Part shown: positions 27,311 to 37,739 of the stretch, one piece after another
Layout of the letters: the number at the start of each line of letters is the position of its first letter
Numbering within the stretch: position 1 is the first letter of the stretch
Assembly (NCBI GenBank): GCA_016192825.1
Contig: JACPTK010000050.1
Span: forward strand, 1-64,000
DNA from: Betaproteobacteria bacterium
GTDB lineage: Bacteria; Pseudomonadota; Gammaproteobacteria; Burkholderiales; SG8-41
Reading direction: 5' to 3'
Length of the DNA: 64,000 nucleotides
The notes under the pieces: model-generated
What the model saw: the letters and a program-made list of their open reading frames with translations, nothing else
Databases searched by the model: none
What the model was told of the DNA's origin: nothing
Program-made: the position numbers and the translations under genes

Positions 27311-28276
27311 ATGCCTCCCCAGCGTATCGTTGCATGGACGGTCCCGGCCGCAATCATCGCTCTCGGCATGGGCGCGGCGTCGGGCCAGGATTACCCGGTC
27401 AAGCCCATACGCCTGCTCAGCCCTGGGCCGGGCGGCGGCGCGGATTTCGTGGCGCGCTTCGTCGCGCAGGGCATCTCGGCGCCGCTGGGCCAGCAGGTCA
27501 TCGTCGACAACCGGCCGGCTGGGGTGATACCGGGACAGGTCGTGTCCAAGGCGCCGCCCGACGGCTATACGCTGCTCCTCAACGGCAACAGCTTCTGGAT
27601 CGCGCCGCTCATGCGCGAGGGCATTCCCTACGACCCGGTGAAGGATTTTTCCCCGATCGCGCTGGCGGTGAGCTCGCCCAACATCCTGGTCGTGCACACG
27701 TCCGTGCCGGCGAAGTCCGTCAAGGCGCTGATCGCGCTGGCCAGGGCGAGACCGGGGGTGCTCAACTATGGCTCGGCCTCCGCCGGCGGCTCGGTTCACC
27801 TCGCGGCGGAACTGTTCAAGTTCATGGCGGGCGTCGACATCGTGCGCATCAGCTACAAGACCAGCGGAACGTCCGTCACCTCGCTCCTTGCCGGCGAAGT
27901 GGACCTGATGTTCGGCAACGCGCCGCCGGTGATTCCGCACGTTAAATCGGGCCGGCTGAGGGCCCTGGCGGTGACCACGCTCAAGCCGAGCGTGCTGATG
28001 CCCGGATTGCCGACGATCGCCGACTCGGGGCTGCCGGGATTCGAAGTGTCCTCGTCGTACGCTTTTTTCGCGCCGGCCAGGACGCCCGCGGCCATCATCG
28101 GCCGCCTGAACCAGGAGATCGTCCGCTTCCTCGCCCGCGCGGACGCGAAGAAGAAGTTTCTCGCGACCGGCGTGGAGCCGGTCGGCGGCGCCCCGGAGCA
28201 GCTGGTGGCCACGATCAAGTCCGAGATGACGCGGATGGGCAAGGTCATCAGGGCGGCGGGCATTCGCGGGAACTGA
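27311..28276 (+). CDS. Bug receptor of the 'GVIPG' subtype
   Basis: A 321-residue receptor with signal peptide MPPQRIVAWTVPAAIIALGM to about residue 25, then DYPVKPIRLLSPGPGGGADF. The ligand loop reads VDNRPAGVIPGQVVSKAPPD, without the usual GAGG. The same GVIPG variant is found at 31064. This pair probably binds a related ligand different from the other receptors. An alpha/beta hydrolase follows 54 bases later on the same strand. Confidence 0.9.
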   Translation: MPPQRIVAWTVPAAIIALGMGAASGQDYPVKPIRLLSPGPGGGADFVARFVAQGISAPLGQQVIVDNRPAGVIPGQVVSKAPPDGYTLLLNGNSFWIAPLMREGIPYDPVKDFSPIALAVSSPNILVVHTSVPAKSVKALIALARARPGVLNYGSASAGGSVHLAAELFKFMAGVDIVRISYKTSGTSVTSLLAGEVDLMFGNAPPVIPHVKSGRLRALAVTTLKPSVLMPGLPTIADSGLPGFEVSSSYAFFAPARTPAAIIGRLNQEIVRFLARADAKKKFLATGVEPVGGAPEQLVATIKSEMTRMGKVIRAAGIRGN

Positions 28277-28330: not shown

Positions 28331-29128
28331 ATGCCGTTTGCCAGGATTTCCGACGATCTCGACATGTACTACGAGGTCGACGATTTCACCGATCCGTGGA
28401 CGAAGCCCGAGACAATCGTGCTGCACCACGGCAACTGCAAGAGCACCCGCTTCTGGTATCGCTGGGTTCCGATCCTCGCCCGCCACTACACCGTGGTGCG
28501 GCTGGATGCCCGCGGGCTGGGGCGGTCCACGGTGCCCCCGCCGGGCTACCAGTGGTCGCTGAACGGCCTGGCGCGGGACCTGGAGCGGCTGCTGGACTTT
28601 CTGAAGCTCGACAAGGTGCACGTGGTCGGCGAGACGGTGGGCGGCACCATCTCCATGCTCTTCACCGCCGAGCACCCGGAGCGGGTCCGCAGCCTGACCG
28701 TGTGCAGCTCGCCGTTTCGCTTCACGGATCCCTATTACAAGGATTCGGCGCGCAAGGCGGAGACGGACGGCGTGCTCGCGTGGGCGCGGGAGAGCATGAA
28801 GCGCCGGCTCGACCCCGCGCGGGTGGGACCGGAATTCGTCGAGTGGTACGCCAACGAGATGGGCAAGACCCCGCTGCACGTCGTCGTGGAGACGCACGAC
28901 GCGCTGGTCGGGCACGATCTCTCGGACACCCTGCGGCGGATCAAGGCGCCGACGCTGCTGCTCTCCGCGGAGAGCCGGCCCGGCTATACGCGGGGGTACG
29001 TGCAGGAGATGGAGCAGCTCATACCGGGATCGAAACTGGTGGTTTTCCCGCGCACCTTCGGCTTCGTGCACCACAGCGAGCCGGAGAAGTGCGCGGAAAC
29101 GGTGCTCGAGTTCCTGCGCGGGATCTGA
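28331..29128 (+). CDS. Alpha/beta hydrolase with threonine at the nucleophile position
   Basis: A 265-residue alpha/beta-fold protein. The oxyanion HHGNCKSTRFWYRW segment, DARGLGRST after strand 4 and the nucleophile elbow VVGETVGGTISM are all in place, but the elbow GxSxG reads G-E-T-V-G. A late His (FVHHSEPEK) and an Asp/Glu candidate (SAESRPG) complete the usual triad order. Thr nucleophiles are rare in this fold, so activity may be altered or the protein may use the scaffold otherwise. It is probably co-transcribed with the Bug gene at 27311. Confidence 0.8.
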   Translation: MPFARISDDLDMYYEVDDFTDPWTKPETIVLHHGNCKSTRFWYRWVPILARHYTVVRLDARGLGRSTVPPPGYQWSLNGLARDLERLLDFLKLDKVHVVGETVGGTISMLFTAEHPERVRSLTVCSSPFRFTDPYYKDSARKAETDGVLAWARESMKRRLDPARVGPEFVEWYANEMGKTPLHVVVETHDALVGHDLSDTLRRIKAPTLLLSAESRPGYTRGYVQEMEQLIPGSKLVVFPRTFGFVHHSEPEKCAETVLEFLRGI

Positions 29129-29423: not shown

Positions 29424-30497
29424 ATGGCTTCCCAGGCGCAAACCCGTTACCACGTCGAGTCGCTCGACCAATTTCCCGAGTTCGCCTACGAGCAGGAGTG
29501 GACAGACGGTCTGCCCGTTTTTCCGCCCACTCGCGAGGTCGTCCAGCGCATGCTCGATTACGTGGGGCGTGATCCCGACGAAGTGATCGGCGCGGTATTC
29601 CCCGGTGACGGCGAGGCGACCATTCGGAATATCGCCGCGAACTGCGCAATGGCGGGCTGCCTTCCGGAGTACCTGCCGGTCGTAATCGCCGCGGTCGAGT
29701 GCATCGTGGACCCGCAGCTCCTCATCACGACGACCCAATCCACCGGCTCGGCGTCCCTGTGCACGATCGTCACCGGGCCCGCCGTCAGCCGGCTGAAATT
29801 CCACACGAGGGAATGGTTTTTCGGGCCGAACGGCGGGCGCGCGAACGCCACCATCGGCCGGGCCGTTCGGCTGGTCCTCTGGAACATCGGACGCGCGCAC
29901 CCGGGCAAGCTCATCAAAGGCACGATGGGCCATCCGGCGTCGTGGAGCTACTGCATCGGCGAGGAGCAGGAGCTGTCACCCTGGGCGCCGATGCACGTCG
30001 ATTTCGGCCTGGACGCCGCCGACAGCGCCGTCACGGTCATGAAGGCGGGTGAGCATTCCCAGATCGCGGCGCCGCTCAATTCCGTCGGGCTGGAGGAATG
30101 CATCACCCTGCTGGCACGGGGCATCGGCAAGGTGGGCATCACAACCAGCGGCGGCAAGCGGGGGTTCCTCTTTGTGATCAACCCGTCGCTGGCGCGTGCG
30201 TTCGCCGACGCCGGCTATTCCCGGGAAAAGCTGCGGGCCGCCATCGCCAAGCGGGCATTCAAGTACTCCTACGACTGGCAGAACGACCGGAAACAGGGCG
30301 AGGCGGTCGCGATTGCGGACCTGTACGCAAAAACGCCCAGCGAGCGTCAGACGCTGGTGGCGCCGGTGCTGCTGGACGAAGTCTTCGTGTGCGTTGGCGG
30401 TGGCGTGTCGCCGCAGATGGGCCAGTGCGTATCGATTTCCAGCCGGAGTTCCGCCGGCAAGCCGATGTTGACGAAGAAGGTGCAGTTCCCGAAATAA
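29424..30497 (+). CDS. Uncharacterized protein encoded just before a UGSC selenoprotein
   Basis: A 357-residue soluble protein with no signal peptide and no catalytic motif that I recognise. Visible features are EWTDGLPVFPPTREVVQRML near the N-terminus, a hydrophobic Cys-containing helix IAANCAMAGCLPEYLPVVIA, GPNGGRANATIGRAVRLVLW, and a C-terminal CVGGGVSPQMGQC. Its stop is 14 bases before the GTG of the UGSC gene, so the two are surely co-transcribed. I recall this arrangement as recurrent but cannot cite it, so the functional link is inferred from spacing alone. CGTGA-type repeats lie immediately upstream. Confidence 0.75.
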   Translation: MASQAQTRYHVESLDQFPEFAYEQEWTDGLPVFPPTREVVQRMLDYVGRDPDEVIGAVFPGDGEATIRNIAANCAMAGCLPEYLPVVIAAVECIVDPQLLITTTQSTGSASLCTIVTGPAVSRLKFHTREWFFGPNGGRANATIGRAVRLVLWNIGRAHPGKLIKGTMGHPASWSYCIGEEQELSPWAPMHVDFGLDAADSAVTVMKAGEHSQIAAPLNSVGLEECITLLARGIGKVGITTSGGKRGFLFVINPSLARAFADAGYSREKLRAAIAKRAFKYSYDWQNDRKQGEAVAIADLYAKTPSERQTLVAPVLLDEVFVCVGGGVSPQMGQCVSISSRSSAGKPMLTKKVQFPK

Positions 30498-30511
30498 GGG
30501 TGGAGGGCAAT

Positions 30512-31036
30512 GTGATAGAGCTCATCAGTCCCGTCGGCTACCCTCGAGTCGAGGAGCAGGCCGCAAGGAAGCCGCTCGGCACCCCCGTGGGCCGGCGCCT
30601 GGGATTCATCTGGAACCAGTATCAGACCACGCGCAATTTCTGGCCCCGTCTCGAGCGTGCCGTCGAAGAGATCTGCAAACCGGCGGCCGTCAAGCGGGCG
30701 TACAAGGCGAACACCTGGACGCCACTCGACAAAACGCAGTTCGGCGAGCTGGCCGCGGCGGTCGATTACCTGGTCATCGGCGTCGGCGCCTGAGGATCCT
30801 GCACCGGCGCCGCCGTGCGCGACGCTTTTGCAGCCTGGAAGCAGGGCATGCCGGCCGTGGTGCTGGTGCACGAGCCTTTTGCGAACCTGGCGAAGGCACA
30901 GTGCCAGAGCCTGGGCGCCAGGGAGCCGCTCATACTCGTGTACAAGCAGGACGCACCCGCGCGCGAGTCCGACCAGGAATCGGACGGCAAGGCCCGCGGA
31001 GTCGCGGCGGAAGTGCTCAAAATGCTGGCCGCGTGA
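30512..31036 (+). CDS. UGSC-family selenoprotein; in-frame TGA at 30791 read as selenocysteine
   Basis: A frame from GTG 30512 (perfect GGAGGG Shine-Dalgarno at 30502-30507) runs to TGA 30791, then stays open in the same frame to TGA 31034. The junction reads VIGVGA-U-GSCTGAAVRDAF, i.e. the Sec-Gly-Ser-Cys motif of the UGSC family, a predicted redox UxxC. Read through, the protein is 174 residues with Sec at 94. Protein-like sequence continues on both sides (EELI-type N-terminal beta strand, then AWKQGMPAVVLVHEPFANLA). A conventional annotation would stop at 30793 or call two fragments. It depends on selA, selB, selC and selD elsewhere in the genome. The alternative is a Cys-to-stop mutant, which the flanking conservation argues against. 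Confidence 0.8.
30801..30818 (+). promoter_or_regulatory. Candidate bacterial SECIS hairpin after the Sec codon
   Basis: GCAC at 30801-30804 pairs with GTGC at 30815-30818, and GGC at 30806-30808 with GCC at 30812-30814. There is one bulged C and a GCC loop that begins with G. The loop starts 16 bases after the TGA, near the lower end of the spacing I remember for bacterial SECIS elements. The stem is short and the region is GC-rich, so chance pairing is possible. Confidence 0.4.
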
Positions 31037-31063: not shown

Positions 31064-32029
31064 ATGAAATCAAAATCGGCTCGGCCCCTCACGGGTTTCC
31101 TGGCGCTCGGCCTGTGCTTGTCGCAGGCCAGCGCATGGGCGCAGGGATTCCCGGAACGGCCTCTTCGCATTGTGACGTCCCAGGCGGGAGGCGGAAACGA
31201 TGTCCAGGCCCGGGCGATTGCGCGCGGGCTGACGGAAGCTCTCGGCCAGCAGGTGATCGTGGACAACCGGCCAAGTGGCGTCATTCCGGGAGATATCGTG
31301 TCGAAGGCGAGCCCGAATGGATACACGCTCCTGTTCTACAACAACGCCTTGTGGACGGGGCCGCTCATGCAGAACACGCCGTACGATCCGGTGCGCGACT
31401 TCGCGCCCGTCACCACGTCGACGATCGGGCCGAACATCCTGGTGGTCAACACCGCGCTGCCCGTAAATTCCGTGCAGGGTCTGATCGATCTTGCCAAAGC
31501 GAAGCCCGGAGAACTCAATTATGCATCGAGCGGCATGGGCGCTTCCAACCATCTTGCCGCCGAGTTGTTCAAGGCGATGGCCGAGGTCAGCATCGTGCGG
31601 ATCGGCTATAAGGGCGCCAGCCCCGGGCTCAATGATTTGATCGCGGGCCAGATACAGGTGATGTTTCCCACGGCCGGCGCGGCGGTGCCGCACATCAAGA
31701 CCGGGCGGGTCAAGCCGCTGGCTGTGACGAGCCAGGAGCGCTCTTCCGTTGCGCCCGACTTGCCGACGGTCGCCGCTTCGGGCTTGCCTGGTTACGAATC
31801 GCTGGCGATATACGGCATCTTTGCGCCCGCTGGAACCCCCCGGCCCATCATCAACCGGCTCAATAGGGAGATCGTCCGCGTTCTGGCTGCGCCGGAAGTG
31901 AAGGACAGATTCTTCAAGCTGGGCATGGAGACCGTCGGCGGCTCGCCTGAGCAGCTCGCGGCCAAGGTCAGATCCGAGATGAAGAGAATGGCCAAGGTCA
32001 TCAAGGCGGCCGGCATCAAGGTCCAGTGA
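31064..32029 (+). CDS. Bug receptor of the 'GVIPG' subtype, after the UGSC gene
   Basis: A 321-residue receptor with signal peptide MKSKSARPLTGFLALGLCLS to about residue 26 (ASAWAQ), then PERPLRIVTSQAGGGNDVQA and the loop VDNRPSGVIPGDIVSKASPN. It is the closest relative in the window of the receptor at 27311, including the NxxxW(T/I)xPLM segment. It lies 28 bases after the selenoprotein stop with GGCGGAAAG before the ATG, so 29424, 30512 and 31064 are probably one transcript. Confidence 0.9.
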   Translation: MKSKSARPLTGFLALGLCLSQASAWAQGFPERPLRIVTSQAGGGNDVQARAIARGLTEALGQQVIVDNRPSGVIPGDIVSKASPNGYTLLFYNNALWTGPLMQNTPYDPVRDFAPVTTSTIGPNILVVNTALPVNSVQGLIDLAKAKPGELNYASSGMGASNHLAAELFKAMAEVSIVRIGYKGASPGLNDLIAGQIQVMFPTAGAAVPHIKTGRVKPLAVTSQERSSVAPDLPTVAASGLPGYESLAIYGIFAPAGTPRPIINRLNREIVRVLAAPEVKDRFFKLGMETVGGSPEQLAAKVRSEMKRMAKVIKAAGIKVQ

Positions 32030-32044
32030 GCCGCAATTGCCAGC

Positions 32045-32158
32045 CTTGAACAATTGGGGACAGCCCCGTTTTCCGGAGGATGAAATCAGCCGGGCTGAAT
32101 ACCCGCCTCTGATAGCTCAGGCTTTTCCCTCCTTGGCCGTCCCGGGGCGCCGCTTCGC
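32045..32158. other. Intergenic debris with possible IS-end sequence
   Basis: GGGGACAGCCCCGTTTTCCG at about 32054 resembles the reverse complement of the IS end at 18915-18935. GATAGCTCAGGCTTTTCCCT followed by CCTTGGCCGTCCCGGGGCGC resembles 18593-18637. Both pairs suggest that the same IS-related sequence once lay here. No gene is seen. Confidence 0.35.
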
Positions 32159-32367
32159 TAGCAGCCTGTCGGACTTAGGTGTCGGACAGGCTGCTAACAG
32201 CAAAACCGCCTGCGGATTTCGAATGAAACCCGGGATAGCGACCCTTATTGCCCTGCAAAAGGCGGACGAGTAGGCTCGAAATGAAGTTTTCATCGCTTTT
32301 TGCCTCCCTTTTCGTGCAGGCGGTTTTGCATAAGGAGTTTGTCGGAGCCAAGTCCGACAAACTCCTA
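32159..32367 (-). repeat. TAG-hairpin element, reverse orientation (209 bp)
   Basis: Outer left: TAGCAGCCTGTCGGACTTAG...GGCTGCTA. Outer right: AAGGAGTTTGTCGG...CAAACTCCTA. Both ends are in CTAG. The interior aligns with the element at 26871 and, in reverse, with those at 18945 and 47778, notably the ATTCGAAATCCGCAGGCGG stretch. It lies 23 bases before prpD. Confidence 0.85.
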
Positions 32368-32389
32368 GAACGTTTTTGAAGGAGCAACC

Positions 32390-33874
32390 ATGCAGCTGGA
32401 ACGCAGCCCGGCGCCGTCGGCTTCCGGCAGCCGGAAGACCATCGCGAGCCCGCGGGTCAACCAACGTCCGCCGTATGACAAGGAACTGGTCGCCATCGCG
32501 GATTACGTGCTCGACTACGAGGTGCGCAGCCCGAAGACGATCGATATCGCCCGGCTCCGGCTGACGGATACCCTGGCGTGCGCGCTGGATGCACTGGCGT
32601 ATCCGGAATGCACGAAGCTACTCGGACCGGTCGTTCCGGGCACGCAGGTGCCGTACGGCGCGCGGGTGCCCGGCACAGCGTTTCAGCTCGACCCGGTCAA
32701 GGCCACCTTCGACATCGGCTGCCTGATCCGCTGGCTGGACTTCAACGACACCTTTACGGCCGCACAGGGAAGCCATCCGTCCGACAATCTCGCGGGCATA
32801 TTGGCCGTAGCCGATCACCTCAGCCGGAAGCGGGTGGCGAACGGGGAGAAGCCATTCCTGATGCGCGATGTGCTCGAAGGATTGGTCAAGGCGTACGAGA
32901 TCCAGGGTTGCATCGCCATCGAGAACGACTTCAACGAAATGGGTGTGGACCACGTCATCCTCAGCCGGGTGGCGACAGCCGCCGTGGTGACCAGGATGCT
33001 CGGCGGCGGACGGGAAGAAATTCTCAACGCCGTATCGAACGCCTGGATCGACACCAGCCTGCGCGTTTACCGGCAGGCACCCAACGCGGGGTGGCGCAAA
33101 AGCTGGGCCGCGCCGAAAGCCACCTCGGAAGGCGTGGCGCTCGCCGTCATGGCGGCCAAGGGCGAGATGGGCTATCCATCGGTTCTGACCGCCCCGAAAT
33201 GGGGGTTCTGCGATCAATTCCGCAATGGCAAGCCGCTCGCGTTCCAGCGCCCCTACGGCGACTATGTCATCCAGCACGCAATGTTCAAGTTTGTCGCGGC
33301 CGGCATGCACGGCCAATCCGCCGTGGAGTGTGCGTTGCGGCTGCATCCCCTGGCGAAGGACCGTCTCTCGGAAATCGAGCGCATCGAGATCACGAGCCAG
33401 CGGGCGCTGATGGGCATCATGGACAAGACCGGGCCGCTGCATAACCCGGCCGACCGAGATCATTGCGTCCAGTACATCGTTGCGGTCGGCCTGATTTTTG
33501 GCCGCTTGCTCGCCGAGGATTTCGAAGACGAGGTGGCGCGGGATCCGCGCATCGACGCCCTGCGCGACAAGATGACCGTTGCCGAGGATCCGGGTTACAG
33601 CCGGGATTTCTACGATCCGCAGAAGCGTTCGAGCGCCAATGCCGTGCAGGTGCGCTTCAAGGATGGATCGAGCACGCCGAAGATCGAGGTGGCGTATCCG
33701 TTCGGCCATCCGCGCCGGCTGGCCGAGGCGGAGCCGGTGCTGCGCGCCAAGTTCGAGCGCAGCCTGAGTCGCCACTATGGGGCGGGGCGGAAAAAAAAGA
33801 TACTGAGCGCCTGCCACGCCCGTTCCCTGGATGCGATGCCGGTCAACGAGTTCATGGATCTATTATCCATTTGA
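32390..33874 (+). CDS. prpD: MmgE/PrpD family, 2-methylcitrate dehydratase-like
   Basis: A 494-residue protein matching PrpD in length and order. IRWLDFNDTFTAAQGSHPSD is the diagnostic active-site segment, with the Asp/His pair, and AAKGEMGYPSVLTAPKWGFC and QHAMFKFVAAGMHGQSAVEC are the family-specific middle and lid regions. PrpD dehydrates 2-methylcitrate in propionate breakdown without an iron-sulfur cluster. No prpB or prpC is adjacent, and a second MmgE/PrpD paralogue lies at 36369, so the true substrate may be another tricarboxylate taken up by the two receptors between them. ATG 32390 follows GAAGGAG. Confidence 0.85.
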   Translation: MQLERSPAPSASGSRKTIASPRVNQRPPYDKELVAIADYVLDYEVRSPKTIDIARLRLTDTLACALDALAYPECTKLLGPVVPGTQVPYGARVPGTAFQLDPVKATFDIGCLIRWLDFNDTFTAAQGSHPSDNLAGILAVADHLSRKRVANGEKPFLMRDVLEGLVKAYEIQGCIAIENDFNEMGVDHVILSRVATAAVVTRMLGGGREEILNAVSNAWIDTSLRVYRQAPNAGWRKSWAAPKATSEGVALAVMAAKGEMGYPSVLTAPKWGFCDQFRNGKPLAFQRPYGDYVIQHAMFKFVAAGMHGQSAVECALRLHPLAKDRLSEIERIEITSQRALMGIMDKTGPLHNPADRDHCVQYIVAVGLIFGRLLAEDFEDEVARDPRIDALRDKMTVAEDPGYSRDFYDPQKRSSANAVQVRFKDGSSTPKIEVAYPFGHPRRLAEAEPVLRAKFERSLSRHYGAGRKKKILSACHARSLDAMPVNEFMDLLSI

Positions 33875-36368: not shown

Positions 36369-37739
36369 TCAGACGCTGTAGAGCTTGCGCAGCGCCCGCA
36401 CGTCCTTCATCCGCCCGATGTCATAGAGCGCGGCGATCAAGGCTTTTCCGCGTGTTTTTCCGATGGCCGGCCCCATCAGGTCGATCGCCTTGTCCGCGAC
36501 TTCGTCGCGGTTCAATGGATTGTCGGGACTGCCCTTGGCCGCCATGGTCTGGTGGGTCAGCGTGCGGCCATCCTTGAGCGTCACTTCCATGATGCAACGC
36601 CAGCCACGCACGGGGGCCGGGATGCTGGGGTCGGCAACCGCCTGTATGCGTTCCCGCATTTTGCGCACCCGGGGATCTTTCACGCGCTTGTAGTCGTGCG
36701 CCGCGGCGAAGGTCATGGCGCCGTCCACCGCCATCACCGCCAGCAGATGCTGCAGCGATATGTCGGGCATGTCGCGGTTGTCCACGACTTTCAGCTCCGC
36801 CGCAGGCACCCGTGCCACGAGCTTCTCCACGTCGTCGGCCTTGAAGCGATGCTCGCGGATGAGCTCATGGAGCACGTGCATGGGGCCTTGTATGGGCCCG
36901 CCGATCGTCCAGCGCTTGACGCCTCCGCGCATGATCTCGAACTTGCGCCCCAGATCCTTGATCATCTCCTCCGGCTTCGCCTGGTCTATGAAGATGGAAA
37001 AGAAATTCGGCCCTCCCGAGAACACATCCTCGACCCCCGTGAAGCCGCGGGCGGCCATCAGCGCGGCCGACAGCCCGTCGTGAGCGGGCATGCCGCCCAT
37101 GGCGTAGGCTTTCTCGACGTGCTCGGTATCCCGGAACATGGTGGCGATGCCGCCCACGTGCTCGGCCGCGTATGAGAGCGAGTAGCGGACCTTGCGCGCA
37201 TCGAGCTTGAGCAACGCGCAGGAAGCGGCAGTCGCGCCGAAGAGCTGTCCCATCGCCCCGGCATGACGGCCGGTGTTCGCATAGCGGGTGGCATCGAGCG
37301 CGAGCAGGGTCCTGGCGCACAAGTCATAGCCCAGCACCATCGCCCGCAGCAACCGTTCTCCCGAGAGCTGTTGCCATTCCGCCAGCGCCAGCGCAGCCGG
37401 AATCACGCTGGTGCCGGGATGCGAGCGCGTCGGGGGGTGGGTATCGTCGGTTTCGTCGGCATGGCCGAACATGCCGTTGGCCAGCGCGGCATTGAGCGTC
37501 GTGGTGACCATGCGTGTCCCGATCACGCCTGCTTCGCGCGTGCCGCCCAGCGGCTTGACGAAAGCAATGGCTCGCCTGCCCGGGAGCTGGCGGGAACCCG
37601 ACAGCATTGAAGCGAAAGTATCCACGAGGTGAAGCCGGGCGCGTTCCGCCACCTCGGGCGGTAGCTTGGCCTTGAGCGCGCCGGCGATATAGCTGCTCAA
37701 CTGCTGAGTGAACGGAGAGATTTGCGTTGCCGTTTTCAT
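36369..37739 (-). CDS. MmgE/PrpD family protein
   Basis: A 456-residue protein of the same superfamily as prpD at 32390 but a different branch: FGHADETDDTHPPTRSHPGT is the active-site segment, HVGGIATMFRDTEHVEKAYA and MGGMPAHDGLSAALMAARGF follow. Such paralogues include aconitate decarboxylase and iminodisuccinate-type epimerases. The ERLLRAMVLGYDLCARTLLA helix is typical. It is transcribed towards the receptor pair and ends at a hairpin terminator. It starts ATG 37739, with a divergent promoter region shared with the receptor at 38086. Confidence 0.8.
   Translation of the reverse strand: MKTATQISPFTQQLSSYIAGALKAKLPPEVAERARLHLVDTFASMLSGSRQLPGRRAIAFVKPLGGTREAGVIGTRMVTTTLNAALANGMFGHADETDDTHPPTRSHPGTSVIPAALALAEWQQLSGERLLRAMVLGYDLCARTLLALDATRYANTGRHAGAMGQLFGATAASCALLKLDARKVRYSLSYAAEHVGGIATMFRDTEHVEKAYAMGGMPAHDGLSAALMAARGFTGVEDVFSGGPNFFSIFIDQAKPEEMIKDLGRKFEIMRGGVKRWTIGGPIQGPMHVLHELIREHRFKADDVEKLVARVPAAELKVVDNRDMPDISLQHLLAVMAVDGAMTFAAAHDYKRVKDPRVRKMRERIQAVADPSIPAPVRGWRCIMEVTLKDGRTLTHQTMAAKGSPDNPLNRDEVADKAIDLMGPAIGKTRGKALIAALYDIGRMKDVRALRKLYSV

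Follow-up and report, generated by a model that had tools for sequence, protein, structure and literature searches.

UGSC proteins (Pfam PF24696; NCBIfam NF041046; the 'UGSC-containing protein' of Zhang and Gladyshev) share a Sec-Gly-Ser-Cys motif in about 170 residues, stand alone or are fused to an unknown domain, a fusion already reported in 2008 (PMC2398784), and figure in the literature as a redox family with no function assigned. UGSC was among the commonest selenoprotein families of the ocean-survey samples and most frequent in the non-marine ones (PMC2398784), a 2016 survey counted 33 UGSC proteins in 26 organisms (PMC5029168), and the accessible text of a 2026 review lists the family without a function (PMC13188914). 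The B proteins of glycine, sarcosine and betaine reductase (GrdB/GrdF/GrdH) have in common with UGSC a Sec-G-[ST]-C-T motif, a weak profile match around the Sec and a link to the thioredoxin system, but the GrdB type is about 430 residues long against about 170 for UGSC, the partner differs, and UGSC falls below every curated cut-off. D-proline reductase PrdB is, like UGSC, a small Sec protein with a second subunit and a UxxC motif; however, PrdB works with the pyruvoyl subunit PrdA, and none is recognisable beside UGSC, whose partner fits no known family. A third system is FarB/FarE of Cloacibacillus, a fluoroacetate reductase, which points to the GrdB type being adaptable to other leaving groups (C-F) (PMC10838667) but is unlike UGSC in being of the GrdB type, with other operon genes, and in coming from anaerobic Synergistota. 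Here we tie UGSC to a partner protein and to the Sec domain of GrdB/PrdB. The UGSC family itself is known; new here are the paired module, the very large paralogue sets, the proposed GrdB/PrdB relation and a TrxB-like gene beside selB.

The window, that is, the whole 64-kb stretch of DNA analysed here, carries on its plus strand a frame (30512-31036) that runs from a GTG start to a TGA stop at 31034-31036 and is otherwise open except for one in-frame TGA at 30791-30793, codon 94. The initial annotation had proposed that this TGA hides a single UGSC-family selenoprotein gene, and the follow-up supports that proposal: the read-through product has 174 residues with VIGVGA-U-GSCTG across the junction, placing Sec94 at the TGA and a resolving-type Cys97 at 30800-30802 (plus strand), and it matches Pfam PF24696 from residue 4 to residue 173, straight across the TGA, with 96.4 bits (cut-off 25). 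Against the NCBIfam equivalog NF041046 (UGSC_fam) the protein reaches 64.7 bits, under the cut-off of 125, and hence it is a divergent UGSC member outside that equivalog. Orthologues at 74% and 75% identity (L156 and L157) occur in two other genera (genomes G011 and G013; 41 genomes searched) and share the start position of the window gene, as GTG in L156 and ATG in L157. The GGAGGG ribosome-binding site noticed earlier lies at 30502-30507 (plus strand), four bases 5' of the GTG, and recurs 5' of the GTG of L156. Both flanks of the TGA had been thought to be conserved protein and indeed evolve as such, with differences between the window gene and L156 biased toward third positions upstream (51 of 93 third codon positions differ, and 8 of 93 second ones) and downstream (34 of 81 and 12 of 81). 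Below the two orthologues stand eleven further matches at 34-40% identity, and every match listed from that search has one TGA. We conclude that the gene is a divergent new member of the known UGSC family and that its in-frame TGA very probably encodes selenocysteine.

Conservation across the family centres on the same residues. In an alignment of 76 UGSC members, position 94 (Sec or Cys) and Gly95 are invariant, Cys97 is present in at least 90% and Ser96 is variable. Every UGSC match listed from the relatives contains the TGA, as do all but two of those listed in a full recount. Homologues with Cys at the Sec position were sought as well as those with Sec, and such CGSC forms came from two haloarchaea, a Sphingomonas MAG, a Binatia MAG and four plasmid loci. 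Seven UGSC matches in the 80 loci described below have no TGA: four have Cys, one (L127) has TAG, one (L121) is degenerate (GGNP) and one (L086) is an N-terminal piece. In a UGSC tree of 100 sequences, from which L127 was left out, the six sequences without a TGA require at least two changes, and the copies of the window genome are spread over several clades; we claim no evolutionary history, since the backbone is poorly supported and the branch of the window protein is very long (3.02). In the same tree, MAGs titled Bordetella parapertussis group (L066, L114, L118 and L123) group with uncultured Betaproteobacteria MAGs, and their record names appear doubtful.

Directly upstream, at 29424-30497 on the plus strand, lies a gene for a 357-residue protein homologous to the domain that is fused behind UGSC in other copies of the same genome. 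This partner domain is probably the 'Unknown_1' of the 2008 GOS paper. Partner and UGSC keep close company: in the window genome the partner is fused or adjacent in 18 of 19 UGSC copies, the nineteenth ending 181 bases from a contig end, and the subfamily of the window protein has it in all nine loci, window included (of the 14 matches with at least 34% identity, the nine with the best scores, each taken with flanks of some 1.5 kb). Searching other genomes with the partner alone gave at least 583 loci, the best 80 of which (not a random sample) contain 99 partner stretches; 91 of these have UGSC on the same strand no more than 1.5 kb away, and two of the remaining eight are at a contig edge. 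Fused Sec forms number 29 among these loci, 28 with UGSC first and one with the partner first, in a test that tolerated one TGA; three 'fused' matches lacking the UGSC TGA cannot be relied on (a TGA splits L097) and stand outside the 29. Beyond Betaproteobacteria and Burkholderiales MAGs, the partner ranges over Chloroflexota, Rokubacteria, Deltaproteobacteria, haloarchaea, Bacillus and Blastococcus. The sequences show that UGSC and partner are linked halves, fused in many relatives. A fused UGSC-partner gene with one TGA also occurs in Bacillus dakarensis (L117:7440-9017).

The partner itself resembles nothing we could recognise in the databases searched. The window partner has no Pfam match over cut-off, and a set of five partner proteins gave one with two sub-threshold matches (best E 0.025); two stand-alone partners run against NCBIfam matched nothing there, with a profile built from 17 partners nothing convincing came up in the PDB (matches at E 1.5 only), and profile comparison with PrdB-like proteins found nothing. 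There is likewise no recognisable relation to a pyruvoyl subunit, and the Cys of a conserved MAGC motif is not invariant. An AlphaFold2 model of the fused protein L107 (pLDDT 90.3, pTM 0.90) suggests that the UGSC and partner parts take up a defined arrangement, and the structure matches of this model fall mainly on the UGSC part.

A link to the thioredoxin system emerges from cultured organisms. Three of six plasmid regions opened carry the Cys-form module beside trx genes, in the orders trxB-trxA-partner-UGSC (Arthrobacter), partner-UGSC-trxB (Roseovarius) and trxB-TctC-SDR-partner-UGSC (Variovorax, where UGSC is annotated as hypothetical and was identified here); the Natrinema, Acidovorax and Paracoccus regions have no annotated trx genes. 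For comparison, dedicated trxA/trxB genes are found in the grd operon of Clostridia (PMC10880999). In the window genome, a TrxB-like flavoprotein with a CADC motif is encoded between selB and the tRNA-Sec gene (L051:5315-6208) and scores 240 bits against TIGR01292, under the cut-off of 343. The position recurs: a TrxB-like ORF directly follows selB in 26 of 30 loci, namely all 25 from the family of the window genome (f1; two of these TrxB matches are cut by contig ends) and that of G040, a genome with 19 UGSC matches. This survey covered 30 of the 39 genomes with SelB over cut-off, being 25 of the 36 f1 genomes and five others; G044 (SelB, no UGSC match) and G037 (one UGSC match) fell outside it. 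The gene is absent at selB in G042, G049 and G058, which have SelB and no UGSC match, and in G047, which has six.

This TrxB-like gene could have another task, that of making selenide for SelD in selenoprotein-rich genomes, unrelated to UGSC turnover. The location fits such a task, as the gene follows selB and, wherever this could be seen (16 of the 26 loci), precedes the tRNA-Sec gene; nor does it sit beside the UGSC copies, no trxB match being present in 16 of 17 fetched UGSC regions of the window genome, with the sel cluster itself as the exception. Against it stand the Arthrobacter, Roseovarius and Variovorax plasmids, in which trxB adjoins a Cys-form UGSC and is therefore unable to serve Sec synthesis for that protein. 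That pattern is no rule, because Blastococcus L127, with its Sec encoded by TAG, also has a TrxB-like match, immediately 5' of UGSC. Apart from this one, the 80 loci yielded a single trxB match, in L077, some 5 kb from a module. We consider the selenide explanation rather unlikely, and it concerns that one gene only.

A further question is which kind of protein UGSC is. We modelled the window protein (pLDDT 89.9) and obtained five strands and five helices in alternation, with Sec94 between the third strand and the third helix. In structure searches the model best matches doubly wound domains like those of flavodoxin, lumazine synthase and receivers (Z 8.2-10.5, rmsd 2.5-4.5 over 112-147 residues in the matches shown), arrangements that, taken from a predicted structure, are common and uninformative on function. 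We also scanned 76 UGSC proteins against NCBIfam at E <= 1, and five of the seven commonest families are Grd/Prd families, the other two being UGSC and NAD kinase: TIGR01917 (GrdB) matched 46 proteins (best 2e-6), GrdF 17 (best 5.9e-4), TIGR01918 14 (best 2.2e-5), GrdH 11 (best 2.3e-4) and PrdB five (best 4.2e-5), with NAD kinase in eight (best 0.0042). When ten UGSC proteins were viewed singly, nine had a GrdB/PrdB-type match over the Sec region, the best being that of L032 to PrdB (6.1e-6). Compared by hhalign with 14 PrdB-like proteins, UGSC scored poorly (E 0.023, probability 2%), yet Sec was aligned with Sec. The window protein and its orthologue L156 have no GrdB/PrdB match at E <= 1, and in the scores seen the UGSC matches lie below the curated cut-offs of TIGR01917, TIGR01918 and TIGR04483; the window protein may work like GrdB/PrdB and yet is not filed with them. 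With moderate confidence we regard UGSC as a remote, pared-down relative of the domain that carries Sec in GrdB/PrdB.

Full-length GrdB-type selenoproteins (L135 and L136; UGTS / UGTC) are found in G003 and G010, and G003 has five full-length GRDB matches, one of which was read. A second selenoprotein family, PrdB-like, of about 400-440 residues and with the motif U-P-N-C-T (UPNYT in one), occurs in many f1 genomes (L137-L151, L153 and L154) and in the window genome (C20:12165-12515); of the GRDB loci fetched, 17 of 20 stay open across a single TGA.

The published view of UGSC would instead make it a thioredoxin-fold oxidoreductase engaged in antioxidant or disulfide work (PMC2398784; PMC13188914), and both the UxxC motif and the trxB/trxA genes beside some members suit a thiol-redox role. 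The predicted fold argues otherwise: the model is strictly alternating with Sec just before the third helix, and its matches, as far as listed, are doubly wound alpha/beta domains with no thioredoxin among them; neither the model nor the profile scans lend support to a thioredoxin fold. All 76 members match UGSC, the leading 25 families that each of two scans listed include no thioredoxin family, and dozens of divergent paralogues, many beside solute receptors, hardly point to housekeeping antioxidant work. We therefore hold the thioredoxin-fold explanation to be improbable. The initial annotation's term 'redox protein' stands in a loose sense only, as the evidence favours a GrdB/PrdB-like catalytic half of a two-part enzyme with the product of 29424-30497.

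The neighbours of the module suggest carboxylate substrates. Next to UGSC, at 31064-32029 on the plus strand, a TctC/Bug-type periplasmic carboxylate receptor (211 bits) adjoins the module, and TctC is present in eight of the nine subfamily loci, window included. In other genomes TctC accounts for 27 of 143 nearest neighbours of modules, an approximate count from script-called ORFs (147 flanking ORFs less four very long ones). TctC is nevertheless weakened as a specific marker of the module because the window genome has at least 150 TctC matches, 11 of them in the window. Three more plus-strand genes assigned by domain matches may or may not belong to the module: a second TctC receptor further upstream (27311-28276, Pfam), an alpha/beta hydrolase directly 5' of the partner (28331-29128, Pfam) and a MmgE/PrpD-family dehydratase (32390-33874, Pfam/NCBIfam). 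PrpD-like genes are found in six of 18 UGSC regions of the window genome and near modules in six of the 80 other loci. The window has two MmgE/PrpD genes (32390-33874 and 36369-37739), and between the adjoining TctC gene and the first of them, at 32140-32380, we noticed by eye an inverted-repeat-like sequence (TGTCGGAC ... GTCCGACA motifs).

Since some predicted selenoproteins are considered to be metal ligands (PMC13188914), the Sec and Cys of UGSC might hold a metal, a metalloid or mercury, in which case the module would act in detoxification or trace-element handling. The recurrent neighbours, however, are carboxylate receptors, PrpD-like and other catabolic genes, with no metal-resistance family among the 25 commonest neighbour families listed, which makes metal handling very unlikely. 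The same 25 families include no other Grd family.

Taking these observations together, we lean toward a reading in which UGSC is the catalytic half of a two-part reductase with the partner encoded at 29424-30497, turning over through a cycle of Sec94, Cys97 and thioredoxin. The TctC receptor would bring in a small organic acid for the partner to hold; the Sec94 selenolate would attack the carbon bearing the leaving group, be it an amine, a thiol, a halide or similar; Cys97 would open the resulting selenoether as a Se-S bond; and a thioredoxin system fed by NAD(P)H would reset that bond. We infer these steps by analogy, as attack by Sec followed by resolution by Cys is the model for PrdB and similar proposals exist for glycine reductase (PMC3091704). 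The leaving group need not be an amine, because a GrdB-like pair has been proposed to act on the C-F bond of fluoroacetate (PMC10838667). The partner, the chemistry of glycine and proline reductases and the thioredoxin system together give UGSC a testable function. The openly accessible literature on UGSC, within the portions available, makes no tie to GrdB/PrdB, to a thioredoxin system or to a paralogue expansion such as the one described next.

UGSC genes are numerous in these organisms. The window genome has 19 UGSC matches, 18 of them with one TGA. UGSC matches were found in 39 of 60 genomes, comprising all 36 of family f1 (the window genome included) and three of 24 from the order's other families, and the number per f1 genome ranged from one to at least 48 among the matches listed in a first count. 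A full recount gave 58 UGSC matches in G010, 40 in G035 and 30 each in G013 and G012, although co-assembly might inflate copy counts in MAGs; the G010 MAG is 98% complete and 2% contaminated. Of its 58 matches, 54 are listed (hand count), all with the TGA and three also with a TAA or TAG. The relatives are named as Betaproteobacteria and Burkholderiales MAGs. For scale, the largest bacterial selenoproteomes cited in the 2026 review have 57 and 63 genes in all, the latter in a Methylomirabilota MAG (PMC13188914), and in 2006 FdhA was the sole selenoprotein in the Betaproteobacteria examined (PMC1794560). Two copies of the window genome stand apart: one (L021; L040:8260-9858, C108) is a Cys form reading CGTS, without the resolving Cys, in a genome whose other copies keep the TGA, and another (L034; L043:15552-16379, C30), counted among the 18, is the remnant of a fused gene in which the opening half of UGSC and portions of the partner are missing.

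If the paralogues carry out the chemistry proposed above, they would differ in substrate, the substrates perhaps being carboxylic acids. We tentatively extend the reading to the whole group, as a possibility that we rate well below the two-part reductase itself: in an uncultivated Burkholderiales family, the minimal GrdB-like UGSC-partner pair may have become a modular platform for reductive cleavage, with up to about 58 paralogues per genome, each acting on its own organic acid, often with its own Bug receptor, and with a single TrxB-like reductase, encoded next to selB, serving them all. Were this so, the selenoproteome would be among the largest known and yet consist of little besides a single family. 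If the function proposed for UGSC is right, reductive cleavage of organic acids with the help of selenium may be common outside the anaerobes to which it is usually ascribed, and gene callers blind to UGA would cut short dozens of these enzymes in each genome.

All of this presupposes that the organism inserts selenocysteine, and the genome (5.1 Mb, 123 contigs) encodes the machinery that the initial annotation had proposed to look for: SelA (577 bits), SelB (441 bits), SelD (408 bits) and a tRNA-Sec (76 bits, confirmed by ARAGORN), with selA, selB and the tRNA-Sec gene on one contig and with one TGA in selD itself. We then folded 45-nt windows and compared them with synonymous recodings. In 71 UGSC genes from other genomes, the mean z was -1.83 (se 0.14) at 0 nt from the TGA, -0.62 at 15 nt, with values from -0.38 to +0.29 in 16 other windows; 17 copies of the window genome gave a mean z of -1.23 (se 0.34) at the TGA. 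The hairpin of the family has 8 bp, with positions 15-22 (from the U of UGA) pairing with 26-33, and 90% of its pairs are formed across 98 genes. Sliding the register lowers the figure to 18-50%; shuffling the partners within columns still gives 82%, so that much of the pairing derives from conserved columns, but none of 1000 such shuffles attains 90%. At least six of the eight pairs form in 87 of the 98 genes, and a G stands first in the loop in 89; with a shift of 0-3 bases allowed, 90 genes reach six of eight pairs and eight fail.

The window copy is one of the 11 exceptions to the family register. Its bSECIS-like hairpin (30807-30825, plus strand) is the family hairpin shifted by 2 nt, with six of eight pairs and a GUG loop at 30815-30817, and the same shifted hairpin with six of eight pairs is present in L156 and L157. 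The region after the TGA has an ordinary minimum free energy (z 1.09; z -0.03 against synonymous recodings), and recodings equal the shifted hairpin in 34% of draws (null fraction 0.34); the hairpin of the window copy is accordingly plausible and not proven. A second measure concerns synonymous sites: where the window gene, L156 and L157 encode the same residue, 9 of 12 codons are identical in codons 95-106, compared with 21 of 99 in the rest of the gene (Fisher p 3.4e-4). The 12-codon segment with the best-conserved synonymous sites begins at codon 93. Such conservation would fit an RNA signal after the TGA. Although the window copy is divergent and its own hairpin is weak when taken alone, the idea that the TGA is a true stop, ending the first of two ordinary short proteins or marking a decayed gene, is rejected as exceedingly improbable, above all on the conservation of the TGA in the orthologues, and also on the coding constraint on both sides, the synonymous-site conservation after the TGA, the UGSC match that runs across it and the Sec machinery of the genome.

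In Blastococcus sp. CT_GayMR19 (L127:7699-7701), UAG replaces UGA at the Sec site of UGSC and is followed by a usual-looking hairpin. This agrees with the report that Geodermatophilaceae have a UAG-reading tRNA-Sec and UGSC proteins (PMC5330540).
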